A stretch of DNA of 24,550 bases from a virus: the IMG/VR virus record IMGVR_UViG_3300046012_000040, positions 1-24,550 of that record; one strand, written 5' to 3'. The notes beneath the pieces were generated by a model that was not told the origin of the DNA, did no database searches, and saw only the letters and a program-made list of their open reading frames with translations. A program made the translations under genes and the position numbers. Shown piece by piece: positions 5,285 through 18,869 of this stretch; position 1 is the first letter of the stretch, and the number at the start of each line of letters is the position of its first letter.

Positions 5285-5743
5285 ATGGGCAGCTATTCTT
5301 TTCTTAGCGTCTCGGCGCGCATCAGCGGTCCCGGTGGCAGCATCGCAATCGGCAATACCGCCGGGTCCAGCGATGAAGGCATCAAGACCAGCTTCGAGGA
5401 CGACAAGAACACCACGACCACCGGCGCCGACGGTTCGATCATGCAAAGCCTTCACGCCTCGCAGACCGGCGAGATCGTGGTGACGTTGCTGAAAACATCG
5501 CCGGTCAATCAACTGCTGGAAAAGATGTTCAACTTTCAGCGGAACAGCGCGGCGAATTGGGGCCAGAACGTCATCCGCGTCCACGACAGCGTTCGCGGCG
5601 ATGTCGTCACCGGCCGCCAGATGGCGTTCACAAAATTCCCGGATAATGCGTGGGCCAAGGACGGCAACACGCTGGAATGGCGCTTCAAGGGCGTCGTCAA
5701 CGAAATTCTGGGGGCGGGCGCTCCCAACTTGGTCAATCCCTGA
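5285..5743 (+). CDS. Tail tube protein, DUF3277-type
   Basis: A 152-residue protein that polymerises into the inner tail tube. Family features include the start YSFLSVSARISGPGG, the charged loop EGIKTSFEDDKNTTTTGADG, then HASQTGEIVVTLLKTSPVN and the ending TLEWRFKGVVNEILG. Each fits the beta-barrel tube fold shared with Hcp-like proteins. It directly follows the sheath, as in related phages, with GCGAGGGCAAG before the ATG. The gap after it (5744-5816) holds a strong GC hairpin and no gene. The product should be among the most abundant in the virion, which may explain the hairpin. Confidence 0.9.
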   Translation: MGSYSFLSVSARISGPGGSIAIGNTAGSSDEGIKTSFEDDKNTTTTGADGSIMQSLHASQTGEIVVTLLKTSPVNQLLEKMFNFQRNSAANWGQNVIRVHDSVRGDVVTGRQMAFTKFPDNAWAKDGNTLEWRFKGVVNEILGAGAPNLVNP

Positions 5744-5772
5744 CCGCCGAATCGGGGCGAGGCTGTAGGGTG

Positions 5773-5792
5773 CGGCGGGCCTCGGCCCGCCG
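5773..5792 (+). other. GC-rich RNA hairpin after the tail tube gene
   Basis: A perfect 8-bp stem CGGCGGGC / GCCCGCCG with the tetraloop CTCG lies between the tube gene and the chaperone gene, 24 bases before the GTG start. No U-run follows. It may protect the 3' end of the tube mRNA or lower read-through into the chaperone, which is needed in smaller amounts. This role is inferred. Confidence 0.6.
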
Positions 5793-5816
5793 TATCTGCT
5801 TCAAAGGGAGGTCAAC

Positions 5817-6260
5817 GTGACCACACTCGACATAAAAGGCAACAAATACAGCTTCCGCAAGCTGTCGACGTTTCAGGTCTGGGAGCTTGCCAGACTGCTG
5901 CGCGATGTCATCCAGTCGCTCGCCATCATGCGCTCGGTTGCCAACGATCCGAAACTGCCGGAGGGCGCCGTGAAGCCGGATCGACGCGCTTATATCACGA
6001 CGACGCTGGCACTATTCGGAGACCTCCCGAAAACCGCAAACGATGCCGCGCTCGCCGTCTGCCTCGGATCAATCCAGCGCGATCAAGGCAAGGATGGCGG
6101 CGTCGGCTGGGCCGACATCTATGCGGCCGGCCGCCTGATGTTCGACGACATCGACATCGCCGATGTCGCCGAGATGGTCTTTCAGGTGATCGAGGATAAC
6201 CGCATCATAGATTTTTTCTCAGCCCCCGTATCGAATACGGGGGCGACGGTCCAGAAATAA
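5817..6260 (+). CDS. Tail assembly chaperone, zero-frame product (G-like)
   Basis: A 147-residue protein starting at GTG after AAAGGGAGGTC. It lies between the tube and tape-measure genes, the universal place of tail assembly chaperones, which coat the tape measure while the tube polymerises. The N-terminus (ITLDIKGNKYSFRKLST-type beta start, then FQVWELARLLRDVI) and the helical C-terminal half ending in MVFQVIEDNRIIDFF fit the family. At 6212-6218 it carries a T TTT TTC slippery heptamer and a downstream hairpin. A fraction of ribosomes should therefore shift to -1 and make a 208-residue fusion with the downstream frame. Without shifting, translation adds 13 residues after DFF and stops at 6260. 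Confidence 0.85.
   Translation: MTTLDIKGNKYSFRKLSTFQVWELARLLRDVIQSLAIMRSVANDPKLPEGAVKPDRRAYITTTLALFGDLPKTANDAALAVCLGSIQRDQGKDGGVGWADIYAAGRLMFDDIDIADVAEMVFQVIEDNRIIDFFSAPVSNTGATVQK
6212..6244 (+). promoter_or_regulatory. -1 programmed frameshift signal
   Basis: The heptamer T TTT TTC at 6212-6218 is in the correct register (GAT TTT TTC in frame zero). Three bases further a perfect 10-bp hairpin begins, 6222-6231 paired with 6235-6244, with loop CGA. After a -1 slip, the new frame runs open from 6218 to the stop at 6440-6442. The location at the end of the chaperone gene matches the conserved frameshift of lambda G/GT and many other tailed phages. The short spacer is a little tighter than usual. 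Confidence 0.85.
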
Positions 6261-6442
6261 CCTACGCCAAGTTACCCGGCGGCGAGGACTACCTGATGCG
6301 ACCCGTACTGGCCGGCGCGATGCGAATGGAGAGCCTGAAAGACGGCAGCGCCGATATCATGGATGTCAAGCTGGCAAACGACGCCCTTGACGTGAAGGTA
6401 GAGAATGAGCGGCGCTATCAGGCGGCGGTGAACAAGAAATGA
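6218..6442 (+). CDS. Frameshift extension of the tail assembly chaperone (T-like part)
   Basis: These 74 codons in the -1 frame begin LSPRIEYGGDGPEITYAK, followed by LPGGEDYLMRPVLAG. They go on through MRMESLKDGSADIMDVKLAND and end in a charged helix (ERRYQAAVNKK). The frame is open only from 6200 and has no good start: the first ATG is at 6296, inside the conserved-looking part, with no Shine-Dalgarno. Expression by -1 frameshifting from the gene starting at 5817 is therefore the best explanation, giving a 208-residue fusion. The stop overlaps the tape-measure ATG (ATGA), so the extension is coupled to it, as expected if it binds the tape measure. An independent 48-aa ORF from 6296 is the alternative. 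Confidence 0.8.
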   Translation, partial: LSPRIEYGGDGPEITYAKLPGGEDYLMRPVLAGAMRMESLKDGSADIMDVKLANDALDVKVENERRYQAAVNKK

Positions 6443-8340
6443 TCCTTCGCGAATACCTTATCGCGCTGGGCTTCAAGGTCGACGAGCAATCGTTTCGCCG
6501 CTTCAACACCTATGTCGGCGTCACCAAGCGAGATGTTACCGAGCTTGGTGCCGCCGCCGTCACCGCAGCGACAGCCATCGGCGTCGTCATCGAGCGGGTC
6601 GCCCGCGAGTACGAAGAGCTTTACTACATCAGCCGGAGAACCGGCAGCTCCGTCGCCAACATAAAATCCTATGGATTTGCGTGGGGCCAGATCGGTCTTT
6701 CCGCCGATGCTGCAAAGCAGTCGATTGAGAATTTTGCCCAGACCATCCGGACCAACCCCGGTCTTAACGCGCTGCTCCGAAACATGGGGATCGACACCAC
6801 CGATGCGGTGGCGGCACAGCAGCAATTTGTCGGCCGCCTCAAGCAGTTCGGCGAGAAGGGCTACTTTATTGGCGCCCAGATCGCGGCGATGTACGGCATG
6901 GGCGAAAAGGAATTTTATCAGCTCTATCATTTCATGGATCAGTCGAAGGCGTGGCAGGAAGATTATTCCCGCCGCCTCCGGGAAGCCGGCATCAACGCCC
7001 AGCAGTACGCCGGAGATTTCCGGAATTATTCCAATCAGGTCAACCAGCTCGGTTCGACCTTCGGCATTACGGCAGAACGCATCGCGCATGACTGGCTTCC
7101 GGCGGCGGAGGGCGTAACCAAAACCCTGCAAGAGGGCGTCGAGTGGTTTAATAAATACAACGCCAGTACCGGCGGCGCCGCCGGTCAGATCGCATCCATT
7201 ACGCTCGCGCTGGGTGGTGCCGCTACGGCCCTACAGATCGTCGGGCGCCTTCTCGGTATCCAGCTTGCATCTGGGACCATCGGAGCATTTTTCAGCAAAG
7301 GGGGCGCCCTCGCCGGGTTGATCGCCTTGCTGGAATACATGAAGGGTGACGACGCCCAGCATAGCCGGCGCTCAACAGTAAGATCGCTCTTTGGTATAGA
7401 GGAAACCGAGGCCGACAAGTTAGCGCCACCTAATTTCGATGACCCATGGGCGGAACGGATCAATCCCCTTACGCGGCAAAGATACCTCCAAGGCTCCGAT
7501 CCAATCGGCATCTATAGAAATTCGATGGGGCCGAACTACCGTAGTCTCGACCGCAGTCAGTGGATGGGGACGCGGGACACCGGATACTACGATGCGTCCG
7601 GTTCGCCGGCCTATGATGCCTTGCAGCGTGGCGGCTCCGTAACCAACGTCCCAAGCCCTTGGGGGTCACCGCAGCCAAGACCCGCCGGCGGCTCCGGTGG
7701 CGCCGGCATCCCCGACATCCCGATGTCGGATCAAGAGCGCAACACGCTAGGGCTTATCCTGAAATACGAGAGCAAAGACCGCAACGTCATGAATTATGCC
7801 GGGCGGGCGCAGGGCATCAATCCGGAGGCTCCGAAGGGCTATACGGCTCAAGGGTATTACCAAGTCTTAAATTCAAATTGGGCGCGACTGGCTCCGGGTC
7901 TCGGCATCGCCGAACACAATGCCATGGCAGCGAGCAAGGAAGATCAGACCCGCGTCGCCTTGGCCCTGCTTCGGGAATCCGGTGTCGGTAATTGGGCGAA
8001 CTACAATCCGGCGCTGCGCTCGGCTCTGGCGCGTGGGGAGATCGCCGGGGCCGATCAGGGTCAGCCACGTCCCGACGGCGGCGTGGCCCGACAACAGGTT
8101 GCCGGCTACGGTGGCCCGGACCAACGGCAGGTCCGACCCGATGGCGGCGTCAATATCAACGGCGCCTTCAATCAGGCGATTGCTCCGGCTCCATCGGCGC
8201 CAACCAACGTCACCATTAACCAGAAAACCGACATCCACGTCACCGGGTCCGACGCCAAGGAGATCGGCAAGAACGTCTTGGATGGACAGGATAAGATCAA
8301 CTCCAACGTGGTCCGCAACGTCGTCGAGGTCGTCCGATGA
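6439..8340 (+). CDS. Tape measure protein with transglycosylase-like domain
   Basis: A 633-residue protein that sets tail length. The first 240 residues are mostly helical (start REYLIALGFKVDEQSFRRFN, typical of tape measures in this module). A hydrophobic stretch at about 245-300 (ASITLALGGAATALQIVG and following) may enter the host inner membrane. After a Gly/Pro-rich linker, residues about 432-520 resemble a lysozyme or lytic transglycosylase fold: LGLILKYESKD with Glu444 as the likely catalytic acid, then TAQGYYQ at 469-475 and later DQTRVALALLRESG. The C-terminus has a repeated basic/Gly motif (QPRPDGGV and QVRPDGGV) and a VTINQKTDIHVTG segment. At 633 residues, a tail of roughly 90-100 nm is inferred. 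Confidence 0.85.
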   Translation: MILREYLIALGFKVDEQSFRRFNTYVGVTKRDVTELGAAAVTAATAIGVVIERVAREYEELYYISRRTGSSVANIKSYGFAWGQIGLSADAAKQSIENFAQTIRTNPGLNALLRNMGIDTTDAVAAQQQFVGRLKQFGEKGYFIGAQIAAMYGMGEKEFYQLYHFMDQSKAWQEDYSRRLREAGINAQQYAGDFRNYSNQVNQLGSTFGITAERIAHDWLPAAEGVTKTLQEGVEWFNKYNASTGGAAGQIASITLALGGAATALQIVGRLLGIQLASGTIGAFFSKGGALAGLIALLEYMKGDDAQHSRRSTVRSLFGIEETEADKLAPPNFDDPWAERINPLTRQRYLQGSDPIGIYRNSMGPNYRSLDRSQWMGTRDTGYYDASGSPAYDALQRGGSVTNVPSPWGSPQPRPAGGSGGAGIPDIPMSDQERNTLGLILKYESKDRNVMNYAGRAQGINPEAPKGYTAQGYYQVLNSNWARLAPGLGIAEHNAMAASKEDQTRVALALLRESGVGNWANYNPALRSALARGEIAGADQGQPRPDGGVARQQVAGYGGPDQRQVRPDGGVNINGAFNQAIAPAPSAPTNVTINQKTDIHVTGSDAKEIGKNVLDGQDKINSNVVRNVVEVVR

Positions 8341-14831: not shown

Positions 14832-17800
14832 ATGAAAAAAATTCTGGTTACGCTGGCTCTGCTCGCGGCCTTTGTCACGCAAGCGATTGCCGCTAGCACC
14901 ATCAATGGTGCCGTTCCGGCGGAAAACTCGTCGCTATCATCGGCGGTGATCCGCAACAATTTTGCGGCAGCCAAGAACGATGTGAACAATATCCTCGGCT
15001 GTTTTGCCGGGGTTACCGCACCGGTTAATCCGTCGACATTCCAGTTCTGGTGCGACACCAGCCTCGGCTCGTCGAGCGTCAGGATCAAGCAATGGGATGG
15101 CTTCCATTGGGTGATCGAGGGCTTTCTGAACCAAAGCACCGGCGTCTATACCGCCGCCATCTCCGGTGCAAACTTTTCTCCGGTGCCGCCGATCACGGTT
15201 TCGGTGACATCGGGTGTCGCCACTATCGGCATCAGTCTGGACAGCCAATTCACCGTCAGCGGCGGCAGTCTTGCCTTCGCCTCGGTTGGGGTCGGTAACG
15301 TGATCGCCAACTGTACGGCGGGGTCGGCCGAACCAATCGGGTCGACGTGGACCTCATGCTTGGATCGAAACATCTCGTCGACCACAGGCGCCGTCGCGGT
15401 GCGGGGTTCGGCGTCGTGGGGTAGCAGCCATACGATGTCGTCCACTACGTTCCCGATCTTCAATCAGAACGTAAACGCGGCGCCATCGGCACTGACCGGC
15501 GCCATCGCCAATTTTGTCGGTATCGATGCAGCATCTCCACGACTGCAACTGACCTCGTTCGGCGCCCCAGCGTTTTTCTCCGGCGTCGCCTATGGCGGCA
15601 CCAATGCTGCGCAGACGGCTGTGACCTCTGGGTCGCAGCTCGTCGCCTATAATGCGTGGGGCTTCAACGGCACGGCTATCGCCGGCCCGGTATCATCCTT
15701 CCGAACCTACGCAACAGAAACCTATGCTGTCGGCGCCCAAGGCTCGAAGGCTTGCGTCGCCACGACGACGACCGGCACTACAACGATGGCGGATGGGTTC
15801 TGCCAGCAGAACGATGGCGGCATCACGGTTGCGACGCCAACCGGCGGCTCGAAGGGTCCGGGGACCGTCAATGTTTCTTCCGGCCTATATATCAATGGCG
15901 CCCTGATCTCACCAGCGACCGGTGGCGCCAACGGCCAGATGCTTCAAGGCGTCACATCCGCCGCTCCGGTCTGGACGACGACACCGACGCTCGGTGTTGC
16001 CGGATCATCGCTGGGATCATTGGCGCTGACCGGGAATACATCCGGTACAGTCACGGTGAAGCCACAGGCGGCGGCCGGCACCTACAATTTCAACCTGCCG
16101 ACCGCAGCCGGATCAACTGGACAAATCCTGCAAAGCGGCGGCGGCGTCGCCAATCCGATGACGTGGTCGACCGCGACATATCCGGCGACGACAACCAATC
16201 AGCAAATTCTATATTCGACATCAGCCAACACGGTTGACGGGCTTACCGCAGTAAGCGGCGGCATCGCCAATTACAGTAGCGGTGGAACGCTGTCGTTCAC
16301 GCGGACGCCAACCCTCGGCGTCGCCGGAACGGCAACCGGGACACTGGCATTTGCTGGCATCACGTCTGGCACAACGACGCTGACACCACTTGCCGCATCA
16401 TCGGGGGCGCTGACGCTGCCGTCGGCAACCGATACCCTGATCGGCAAGGCGACCACGGATACGCTGACCAACAAGACCTATGACACCGCTGGCACCGGCA
16501 ACAGCTTTTCGATCAACGGGCTGGCGGCAACCGCCAACACCGGCACCGGTGCCGTTGTCAGGGCAACCACACCGACGCTGGTGACCCCGGTACTCGGCAT
16601 CGCATCAGCGACATCCGTCGCTATCGGTGGTGCCACCATCGGGACCGATGCGCTGGCATGGACCGGAACGGCAACAGGATCGGGCCAGCTCAACGCGGCG
16701 AGCTTTACTCCAACCGGCTCAACAATCCCAGCGAACGGAATGTATTTGCCGAGCGCCAATTCTGTTGCTCTATCCACTAACTCTGCTGGACGCTGGTCAA
16801 TCAGCAGCGCCGGAAATTTCATCAGCCTCGGATCGGCGAGCGGGGCGCAGCTAACCGTGTCGGCTACATCGTCAACCGTTCCTGCGCTGGTCCCAAATCG
16901 AACAGATACCACCACCGGTGTCGGTGCCCAAGCTGCCGGCAATATGTCTCAAATCGTTGGTGGCGCCGAGGTCGGGCGGTGGACCTCGACTGGATTAAAC
17001 AATGCCAATATCGGAGCCACGACGGCGGGAACCGGTACGTTCACTACGTTGACCGGGACGACATCGATACTTGGTACGGCATCATCGACCACCGCCGCGT
17101 TCGGTGGTTGCACCATCGGCACCGATGTTTTCTGCGGCACCGGGACCGGAACGCTATCCGGGCAGATGACGGCGGGCAGTTTTGTACCATCGTCGTCGAC
17201 AGTTCCTACGAATGGCCTGTATCTGCCGAGCGCAAACACCCTCAGCTTTTCCACAGCGACGACTGCTCGCGTCACGCTGGATTCCGGATCGCTGCGGTCG
17301 GCCACCGCTGGAAGCTGGCAGCTCGGTATCGCTGCGGCTTCATCGACCGTACCATCATTGATCCCGAACAAGGCCGACACCACGACGGGTATCGGATCAC
17401 AGGCCAGCGGCAACATCTCTCAGGTCGTGGCCGGCGCCGAGATTGGACGCTGGACATCGACCGGTCTCAACAACGCGAACATCGGGGCAACTACGGCCGG
17501 AACCGGTGCCTTCACCACGCTGACGGCGACAACCGTCAACGGCAACACGATCAGCAGCGGGACCGGAACGCTGACCCTTGGTGCCGGCAAAACGCTGACG
17601 GCATCAAACTCCCTGACGCTCACCGGGACCGACGCGACATCATTCGCGTTCCCGGCGGGAAGCGACACCGTTGTTGGCCTGACCGCCTCGCAGACCTTGA
17701 CCAACAAAACGCTGACCGGCCCGACGATCTCGGCACCGGCGGTGACCGGCGTCGCTGATTTCCAAGGCGCGATGAAAACATCGACGCAGTCGGCACCGGC

Positions 17801-18869
17801 TCAGATCACGTCAAACCAGAACGACTACAATCCGTCATCCGTGGTCTGTACGACGACGACGACCCTGCTTATCAACTCGGATGCGGCTCGCGACATCACC
17901 GGTCTGGCCGGCGGTGCCGCCGGTTGCCGGATGTCGATCATCAACAATGGTTCTTTCACGATCACGCTGAAAGAACAGAACGTCGGCTCCACCGCCGCTA
18001 ACCGGTTCAATCTCGGCGGCGATTTCCTGATCGGCGCCAACGGGACGGCATCTTTGGTCTATGACGGCACGGCGTCGCGCTGGCGCAGTCTTGCCTCGCA
18101 ATCGGCCGGTGCCGGCTCCGGAACGGTGACCTCGGTGGTTTGCGGCACCGGTCTCAGCGGTGGCACCATTACGACCTCCGGAACCTGCGCCGCGCTGGGC
18201 TATCAACTCAAAGGGGTGACCCTGCTGACATCCGGCAGCTCGTCTTATGCGGTCCCCGCCAGCGTTCGCGCCCTCTTCATTGAGGCCATCGGCGCCGGTG
18301 GCGGTGGCGGTGGCGCTTCCGGCTCCGCATCAAATGCCGGGGCCGCTGGCGGTGGTGGCGGCGGTAGCTGCTCAAAGGTCTGGCTGACCACGCTCAATGG
18401 TCCGTATGCCTACGCGGTCGGTGCTGCCGGCACCGGCGGTACTGCGGGGGCCAACGATGGCACATCTGGCGGCAATACGACATTCACCGACGCCAGCTCC
18501 GTTGTTGTGCTGCAAGCCAACGGTGGCGCCGCAGGGAAGGGTGACACCTTCAACACCACGCTGCGTCTTGGCGGCACCGGCGGTGTTGGTGGCACCATTT
18601 CCACCGGCGACACATCGCTGGCGGGTGGGCAGGGCGGCACAGGATTGGCGTTCAGCGGCACGGTCGCCATATCCGGCGTCGGCGGCGCCGGTGCTTGCGG
18701 TGGTCCCGGTGCAGCACAACGGAACAGCACGGATAGCGCGTCTGGTGTCGGTGGTGCCGCTGGCGTTTCCGTAGGGGCTGGCGGCAGCGGTGCCTTGACA
18801 CTAACTGGCACTAGCCGCGCCGGTGGAAACGGAGCCGCCGGACTTATCCGGATATGGGAGTATTACTGA
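14832..18869 (+). CDS. Giant tail fibre with signal peptide, repeats and Gly-rich tip
   Basis: A 1345-residue protein, by position and composition a second, long fibre. Residues 1-20 form a convincing Sec signal peptide (MKKILVTLALLAAFVTQAIA, cleavage likely after Ala20), odd for a cytoplasmically assembled virion part. Residues about 22-90 resemble fibre head domains (RIKQWDGFHWVIEGFLN). The middle is Thr/Ser/Gly-rich with fibre motifs such as DTLIGKATTDTLTNKT and DTVVGLTASQTLTNKT, and a tandem unit of about 158 residues (from 598 and 757). From about 1150 the chain is Gly-rich (AIGAGGGGGGASG) and ends GLIRIWEYY, like polyglycine-helix adhesin tips. AAGGA precedes the ATG, and the stop overlaps the endolysin start. 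Confidence 0.8.
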   Translation: MKKILVTLALLAAFVTQAIAASTINGAVPAENSSLSSAVIRNNFAAAKNDVNNILGCFAGVTAPVNPSTFQFWCDTSLGSSSVRIKQWDGFHWVIEGFLNQSTGVYTAAISGANFSPVPPITVSVTSGVATIGISLDSQFTVSGGSLAFASVGVGNVIANCTAGSAEPIGSTWTSCLDRNISSTTGAVAVRGSASWGSSHTMSSTTFPIFNQNVNAAPSALTGAIANFVGIDAASPRLQLTSFGAPAFFSGVAYGGTNAAQTAVTSGSQLVAYNAWGFNGTAIAGPVSSFRTYATETYAVGAQGSKACVATTTTGTTTMADGFCQQNDGGITVATPTGGSKGPGTVNVSSGLYINGALISPATGGANGQMLQGVTSAAPVWTTTPTLGVAGSSLGSLALTGNTSGTVTVKPQAAAGTYNFNLPTAAGSTGQILQSGGGVANPMTWSTATYPATTTNQQILYSTSANTVDGLTAVSGGIANYSSGGTLSFTRTPTLGVAGTATGTLAFAGITSGTTTLTPLAASSGALTLPSATDTLIGKATTDTLTNKTYDTAGTGNSFSINGLAATANTGTGAVVRATTPTLVTPVLGIASATSVAIGGATIGTDALAWTGTATGSGQLNAASFTPTGSTIPANGMYLPSANSVALSTNSAGRWSISSAGNFISLGSASGAQLTVSATSSTVPALVPNRTDTTTGVGAQAAGNMSQIVGGAEVGRWTSTGLNNANIGATTAGTGTFTTLTGTTSILGTASSTTAAFGGCTIGTDVFCGTGTGTLSGQMTAGSFVPSSSTVPTNGLYLPSANTLSFSTATTARVTLDSGSLRSATAGSWQLGIAAASSTVPSLIPNKADTTTGIGSQASGNISQVVAGAEIGRWTSTGLNNANIGATTAGTGAFTTLTATTVNGNTISSGTGTLTLGAGKTLTASNSLTLTGTDATSFAFPAGSDTVVGLTASQTLTNKTLTGPTISAPAVTGVADFQGAMKTSTQSAPAQITSNQNDYNPSSVVCTTTTTLLINSDAARDITGLAGGAAGCRMSIINNGSFTITLKEQNVGSTAANRFNLGGDFLIGANGTASLVYDGTASRWRSLASQSAGAGSGTVTSVVCGTGLSGGTITTSGTCAALGYQLKGVTLLTSGSSSYAVPASVRALFIEAIGAGGGGGGASGSASNAGAAGGGGGGSCSKVWLTTLNGPYAYAVGAAGTGGTAGANDGTSGGNTTFTDASSVVVLQANGGAAGKGDTFNTTLRLGGTGGVGGTISTGDTSLAGGQGGTGLAFSGTVAISGVGGAGACGGPGAAQRNSTDSASGVGGAAGVSVGAGGSGALTLTGTSRAGGNGAAGLIRIWEYY
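16623..17049 (+). repeat. Fibre internal tandem repeat, copy A
   Basis: First copy of a roughly 475-bp unit within the giant fibre gene, from IGGATIGTD (residue 598) to about NNANIGATTAGTGTFTTLTG. It includes MYLPSANSV and a STVPALVPNRTDTTTG segment that recur in copy B. Copies are diverged at DNA level but aligned almost without gaps in protein. Confidence 0.75.
17100..17526 (+). repeat. Fibre internal tandem repeat, copy B
   Basis: Second copy, from FGGCTIGTD (residue 757) to NNANIGATTAGTGAFTTLTA. It has LYLPSANTL and STVPSLIPNKADTTTG at the corresponding places. The period is 157-159 residues, which points to duplication of one fibre-shaft module. Confidence 0.75.

Follow-up and report, generated by a model that had tools for sequence, protein, structure and literature searches.

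A conserved slip site in a phage tail assembly chaperone gene and its probable -1 frameshift product

Does the reading frame that overlaps the 3' end of a phage tail assembly chaperone (TAC) gene encode a small protein in its own right, or is it entered by ribosomes that leave the frame of the chaperone? The question is raised by a 24,550-base virus contig, hereafter the window, in which the TAC gene, a second frame in the -1 register, a slippery heptamer and a hairpin crowd together just ahead of the tape measure gene (Table 1). From sequence comparison with its relatives, it is very probable that a programmed -1 ribosomal frameshift at 6212-6218, with likely help from the hairpin, yields a minority 208-residue fusion beside the 147-residue chaperone.

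Table 1. Coordinates in the window of the features discussed in the text.
Feature	Position	Strand	Remarks
Tail tube-like protein gene	5285..5743	+	KPP10_Orf10 family, E 8e-46; 5' of TAC
TAC, zero-frame product, 'G'-like	5817..6260	+	147 aa, GTG start; stop 6258-6260
Open -1 frame, putative 'T'-like extension, DUF6889/phrog_4364	6200..6442	+	74-residue trans-frame part coded from 6218
Slippery heptamer T_TTT_TTC	6212..6218	+	in phase with zero frame of TAC ORF
Spacer TCA, 3 nt	6219..6221	+	between heptamer and hairpin
Perfect 10-bp hairpin, triloop CGA, likely 3' stimulator	6222..6244	+	arms 6222-6231/6235-6244
Internal ATG in -1 frame, rival start	6296..6298	+	GAGGA at 6284-6288, 7 nt upstream
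ATGA, -1 frame stop overlapping tape measure start	6439..6442	+	TGA 6440-6442, ATG 6439-6441
Tape measure protein gene	6439..8340	+	633 aa; phrog_12506 E 1.8e-24, phrog_2276 E 4.5e-21

The chaperone gene and the frame that overlaps it

The first ORF (5817-6260) is a member of the TAC family, as it matches both Phage_TAC_15 of Pfam (33.4 bits against a cut-off of 22, E 7.5e-8) and phrog_1688, tail assembly chaperone (E 9e-14). It is flanked by the tail tube-like gene and the tape measure gene, and this KPP10_Orf10, TAC and tape measure series is preceded by a DUF3383 sheath gene. The gene order and the annotation of the correspondingly placed gene of phage Magia suggest that the product of 5285-5743 would be the tube protein. 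Between that gene and the chaperone gene lies a strong GC-rich hairpin (5768-5796; the fold of 5744-5816 has -38 kcal/mol and a z of -2.7), which might lower chaperone expression; a match to the Brucella sRNA CII26 there is weak, far under the gathering score. The tape measure protein is short, with a weak transglycosylase-like match (residues 460-520) just under the Pfam cut-off.

The -1 frame is open to 6442 and holds a 74-residue extension, as an earlier note on this DNA had it. It matches DUF6889 (PF21829; 44.7 bits against a curated cut-off of 23.9, E 1.1e-11) and phrog_4364 (E 5e-18), both listed as of unknown function, and a search for literature on DUF6889 found none. An AlphaFold2 model of the 76-residue frame, made from an alignment that excluded the loci behind seven rows from the phage collection, has a pLDDT of 87 and predicted helices at residues 26-33, 39-44 and 49-75. 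Fold comparison gave no PDB match for this model; its matches in BFVD are weak, mostly to uncharacterised phage proteins, none with an E below 0.001.

The slip site among relatives

Homologues gathered from phages, IMG/VR and prokaryote genomes gave 163 loci, 164 with the window. A DUF6889-like frame lies in the -1 register of the TAC ORF in all 164, a count that is silent on phages devoid of the extension, nearly all loci having been found via the extension itself. DUF6889 matches each of the 72 aligned -1 products. Conservation of the -1 product starts directly at the slip (F-F/Y-x-R, with the R in 81%).

The zero frame of the window reads ATC ATA GAT TTT TTC TCA GCC, which agrees in both coordinates and phase with the heptamer that the earlier note had pointed out. 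When the codons of the TAC gene are shuffled, 1.6% of the shuffles (310/20000) place an in-phase heptamer within the final 60 nt, so that on its own the heptamer of the window is not extraordinary; it is conservation across the family that convinces. Once near-identical loci had been removed, an in-phase XXXYYYZ heptamer (Y = A or T) was found within the overlap in 106 of 122 loci. Over the 4132 codons of the overlap there are 143 such heptamers in phase; the two remaining phases have 28 and 3, and the upstream part of the same genes holds 10 in phase per 16748 codons. Their position is also constrained: the distance from the LPxGED motif of the extension back to the closest heptamer is 60-81 nt for 101 of the 104 loci measured. 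The types met are TTTTTTC/T/G, AAATTTT, CCCTTTT, GGGTTTT, CCCTTTC, GGGTTTA and GGGAAAT. A canonical heptamer is missing from 16 of the 122 loci, several of which carry G_CCT_TTT at the same place. This putative non-canonical slip site takes the conserved position in L123, L133, L152, L160, L108 and L113 (about 1440-1470 in each); the loci that carry it are mostly from Achromobacter, Burkholderia and Cupriavidus genomes.

The same comparison bears on two other ways in which the -1 frame could be expressed. Gene callers annotate DUF6889/phrog_4364 as a separate small gene in several phages, which in the window would start at the ATG of 6296 and encode 48 aa. The earlier note had held that the frame lacks a plausible start; there is indeed no ATG, GTG or TTG ahead of 6296, but the statement was too strong, for the ATG at 6296-6298 has a GAGGA 7 nt upstream. 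Stand-alone ORFs are annotated in some records, and the PHROG model begins near this codon. The comparative data nevertheless oppose use of this ATG and make a separate gene very unlikely. The conserved LPxGEDxL motif (LPGGEDYL in the window) is encoded upstream of it, conservation of the -1 product already begins at the slip site, and the GAGGA belongs to the codons for the conserved Gly-Glu-Asp. Among 119 loci, the codon at 6296 specifies Met 53 times and Leu 62 times, and a start there would cut the predicted first helix (26-33 of 76) at residue 29. When the span from 20 nt before the chaperone stop to the LPxGED motif was searched for a standard -1 start, one was present in 50 of the 119 loci, and only 2 of the 119 had a start together with a ribosome-site-like sequence. 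The overlapping -1 ORF is devoid of a conserved start of its own, and homologues that express it from their own start and ribosome site, which the earlier note had named as the finding that would speak against frameshifting, are confined to at most these two of the 119 loci.

Another mechanism that could join the two frames is slippage of RNA polymerase, not of the ribosome, on the run of six Ts. A T6 or T7 run is present at the slip place in 66 of the 106 loci with a heptamer. However, T6 is short for polymerase slippage, and the other 40 loci carry one of the six remaining types (AAATTTT to GGGAAAT), mostly with no long homopolymer, on which tandem tRNA re-pairing is possible. Such a variety of heptamers fits tandem re-pairing better than polymerase slippage, which is hardly credible here. 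The earlier note's central claim, a -1 frameshift product of the TAC gene, is thus strongly supported by the 163 relatives, through the register of their -1 frames, their heptamers and the scarcity of starts. Programmed -1 ribosomal frameshifting is a familiar device of tailed phages, of which the window looks like a genuine new example with an unusually tidy signal; this signal is well conserved and very likely functional.

DUF6889 does not look like a stand-alone protein; it seems to form the C-terminal, trans-frame half of this chaperone. The modest new point is that the best reading of both DUF6889 and phrog_4364 is as the trans-frame half of a Phage_TAC_15-like chaperone, a reading that would fix the annotation of the tail genes of the window phage and of the whole DUF6889/phrog_4364 family.

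The hairpin downstream of the slip site

Folding confirmed the perfect 10-bp hairpin with a CGA loop that had been described 3 nt past the heptamer. The 61-nt fold at this place has a free energy of -20.5 kcal/mol (z -3.5), and none of 200 shuffles was equally stable. No known RNA family matched over 6222-6244.

In the relatives, stem pairing was tested arm by arm; a gapless alignment of the hairpins misplaces the 3' arms because loop length varies. Perfect stems of at least 7 bp that start 3-9 nt after the slip are formed by 21% of the loci with their own arms, by 3.3% when the arms are swapped between loci, and by 1.8% elsewhere in the gene. In the subclade with XXXTTTT heptamers the stem starts about 6 nt after the slip; full pairing over 7 nt is seen in 56% with the 3' arm of the locus itself and in 14% with one swapped in from another locus, and there are 10 distinct fully paired arms. 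These compensatory stems amount to covariation. The T6 group, to which the window belongs, has fewer stems (9%), and these are inconsistently placed; the longest are those of the window and of L032 (10 bp each). The window hairpin has no close relatives (over 75% identity at the site) among the collected loci for such a comparison, and conservation of its own stem is not supported by covariation. Part of the family therefore has a 3' stimulator, and the window likely has one too; in the G/GT class of chaperones such a structure is optional.

The alternative that the hairpin is a chance structure, or has some other role such as that of a terminator, bears on the hairpin only and is compatible with frameshifting, for which the heptamer alone would suffice. 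It would account for the variable position of hairpins in the T6 group and for a mean folding z downstream of the slip that is only modestly below that of control windows (-0.89 vs -0.44). It is nevertheless unlikely. The hairpin at 6222-6244 is the only perfect Watson-Crick hairpin of at least 10 bp with a loop of 3-8 in the 24.55 kb of the window, where whole-window shuffles give a mean of 0.2 (n=10); stems at the slip place are about tenfold more frequent than elsewhere in the gene, and they covary in one subclade. The terminator reading was rejected, since the run of Ts lies 5' and not 3' of the hairpin and a terminator scan made no call.

The earlier note had suggested that so short a spacer (3 nt) may result in frequent shifting, and this found no support. 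The commonest spacer in the relatives is 5-7 nt, the usual one is 5-9 nt, and shortening the spacer of an HIV cassette raised the ratio of -2 to -1 shifts (PMC5009743). Because usual spacers are longer and the HIV shortening favours -2 over -1, a 3-nt spacer is no sign of a high rate. It is quite doubtful that the U6C heptamer and a 10-bp GC-rich stem 3 nt away make for an unusual recoding event, with either a distinctly elevated -1 rate or -1 and -2 products side by side, a chaperone to fusion ratio unlike that of lambda, and tape measure synthesis tied to the shift via the ATGA.

Predicted products and known systems

In the proposed mechanism, most ribosomes would read through the heptamer and stop at 6258-6260, releasing the 147-residue chaperone. 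A minority would slip on T_TTT_TTC, aided by the adjoining hairpin, both Phe tRNAs re-pairing in the -1 frame (TTT/TTC to TTT/TTT), and would make 208 residues, 134 in the TAC frame and 74 in the -1 frame. Shifted ribosomes would end at the ATGA, on the start of the tape measure gene, and unshifted ones 179 nt earlier. The ATG at 6439-6441 has no evident ribosome site, and in the relatives the start at the tape measure position overlaps the -1 stop in 82% of the loci where a start was found; coupling of the frameshift to tape measure translation through the ATGA is plausible.

The closest functional precedent is gpG/gpGT of lambda, in which the two products are made at about 30:1, the G part binding the tape measure protein and the T part the tail shaft subunit (PMC5009743). 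By analogy, the part common to both window products may coat the tape measure protein; the extension, predicted to be a helical DUF6889 domain, would recruit subunits of the tail tube. In both systems the chaperone ORF immediately precedes the tape measure gene, an in-phase slip heptamer lies close to its 3' end, a -1 extension overlaps it, and a minority product is expected. They differ in that the lambda heptamer is G_GGA_AAG whereas that of the window is T_TTT_TTC with a strong adjacent hairpin, and in that the window has the Phage_TAC_15 and DUF6889 families and a sheathed, contractile tail.

The E/E+E' pair of P2 is also from a contractile-tailed phage and has a -1 extension ahead of the tape measure gene and a T6-type heptamer, T_TTT_TTG. 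In the window, by contrast, C is the last base of the heptamer and a 10-bp hairpin follows after 3 nt, and the protein families differ as far as Pfam and PHROG matches tell. Frameshift efficiency in P2-type phages is 2- to 3-fold higher (PMC5009743). Phage Mu likewise recodes by frameshift in connection with tail length, but it uses a -2 shift (PMC5009743). A -2 shift was rejected as the productive event in the window family: the extension is -1 in all loci, no Mu-type -2 (+1) extension was seen, and the -2 frame of the window ends after 57 codons.

Klebsiella phage Mulock and Burkholderia phage Magia have direct homologues in the same gene order, and their annotation already joins the two frames across the shift as a tape measure chaperone frameshift product; for Magia the frameshift has been reported (PMC7883833). 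The word hidden, which the earlier note applied to the product, may thus hold for the unannotated window record and not for these relatives. Identity to the window is 31% in the TAC for Mulock and 43-48% in the extension for the two phages, and their heptamers are TTTTTTG and CCCTTTT as against TTTTTTC. The family as a whole provides many natural variants of the slip heptamer, part of them with downstream stems, in which spacing and stem strength can be set against frameshift rate.

Two further observations concern the phage itself. A large putative tail fibre gene (14832-18869, 1345 aa) contains internal direct repeats, for example of 194 nt with 71% identity at a distance of 471 nt. By their extension (53% identity), L100 and L101, from Ochrobactrum and Brucella genomes, count among the closest relatives, a similarity that hints at an alphaproteobacterial host.
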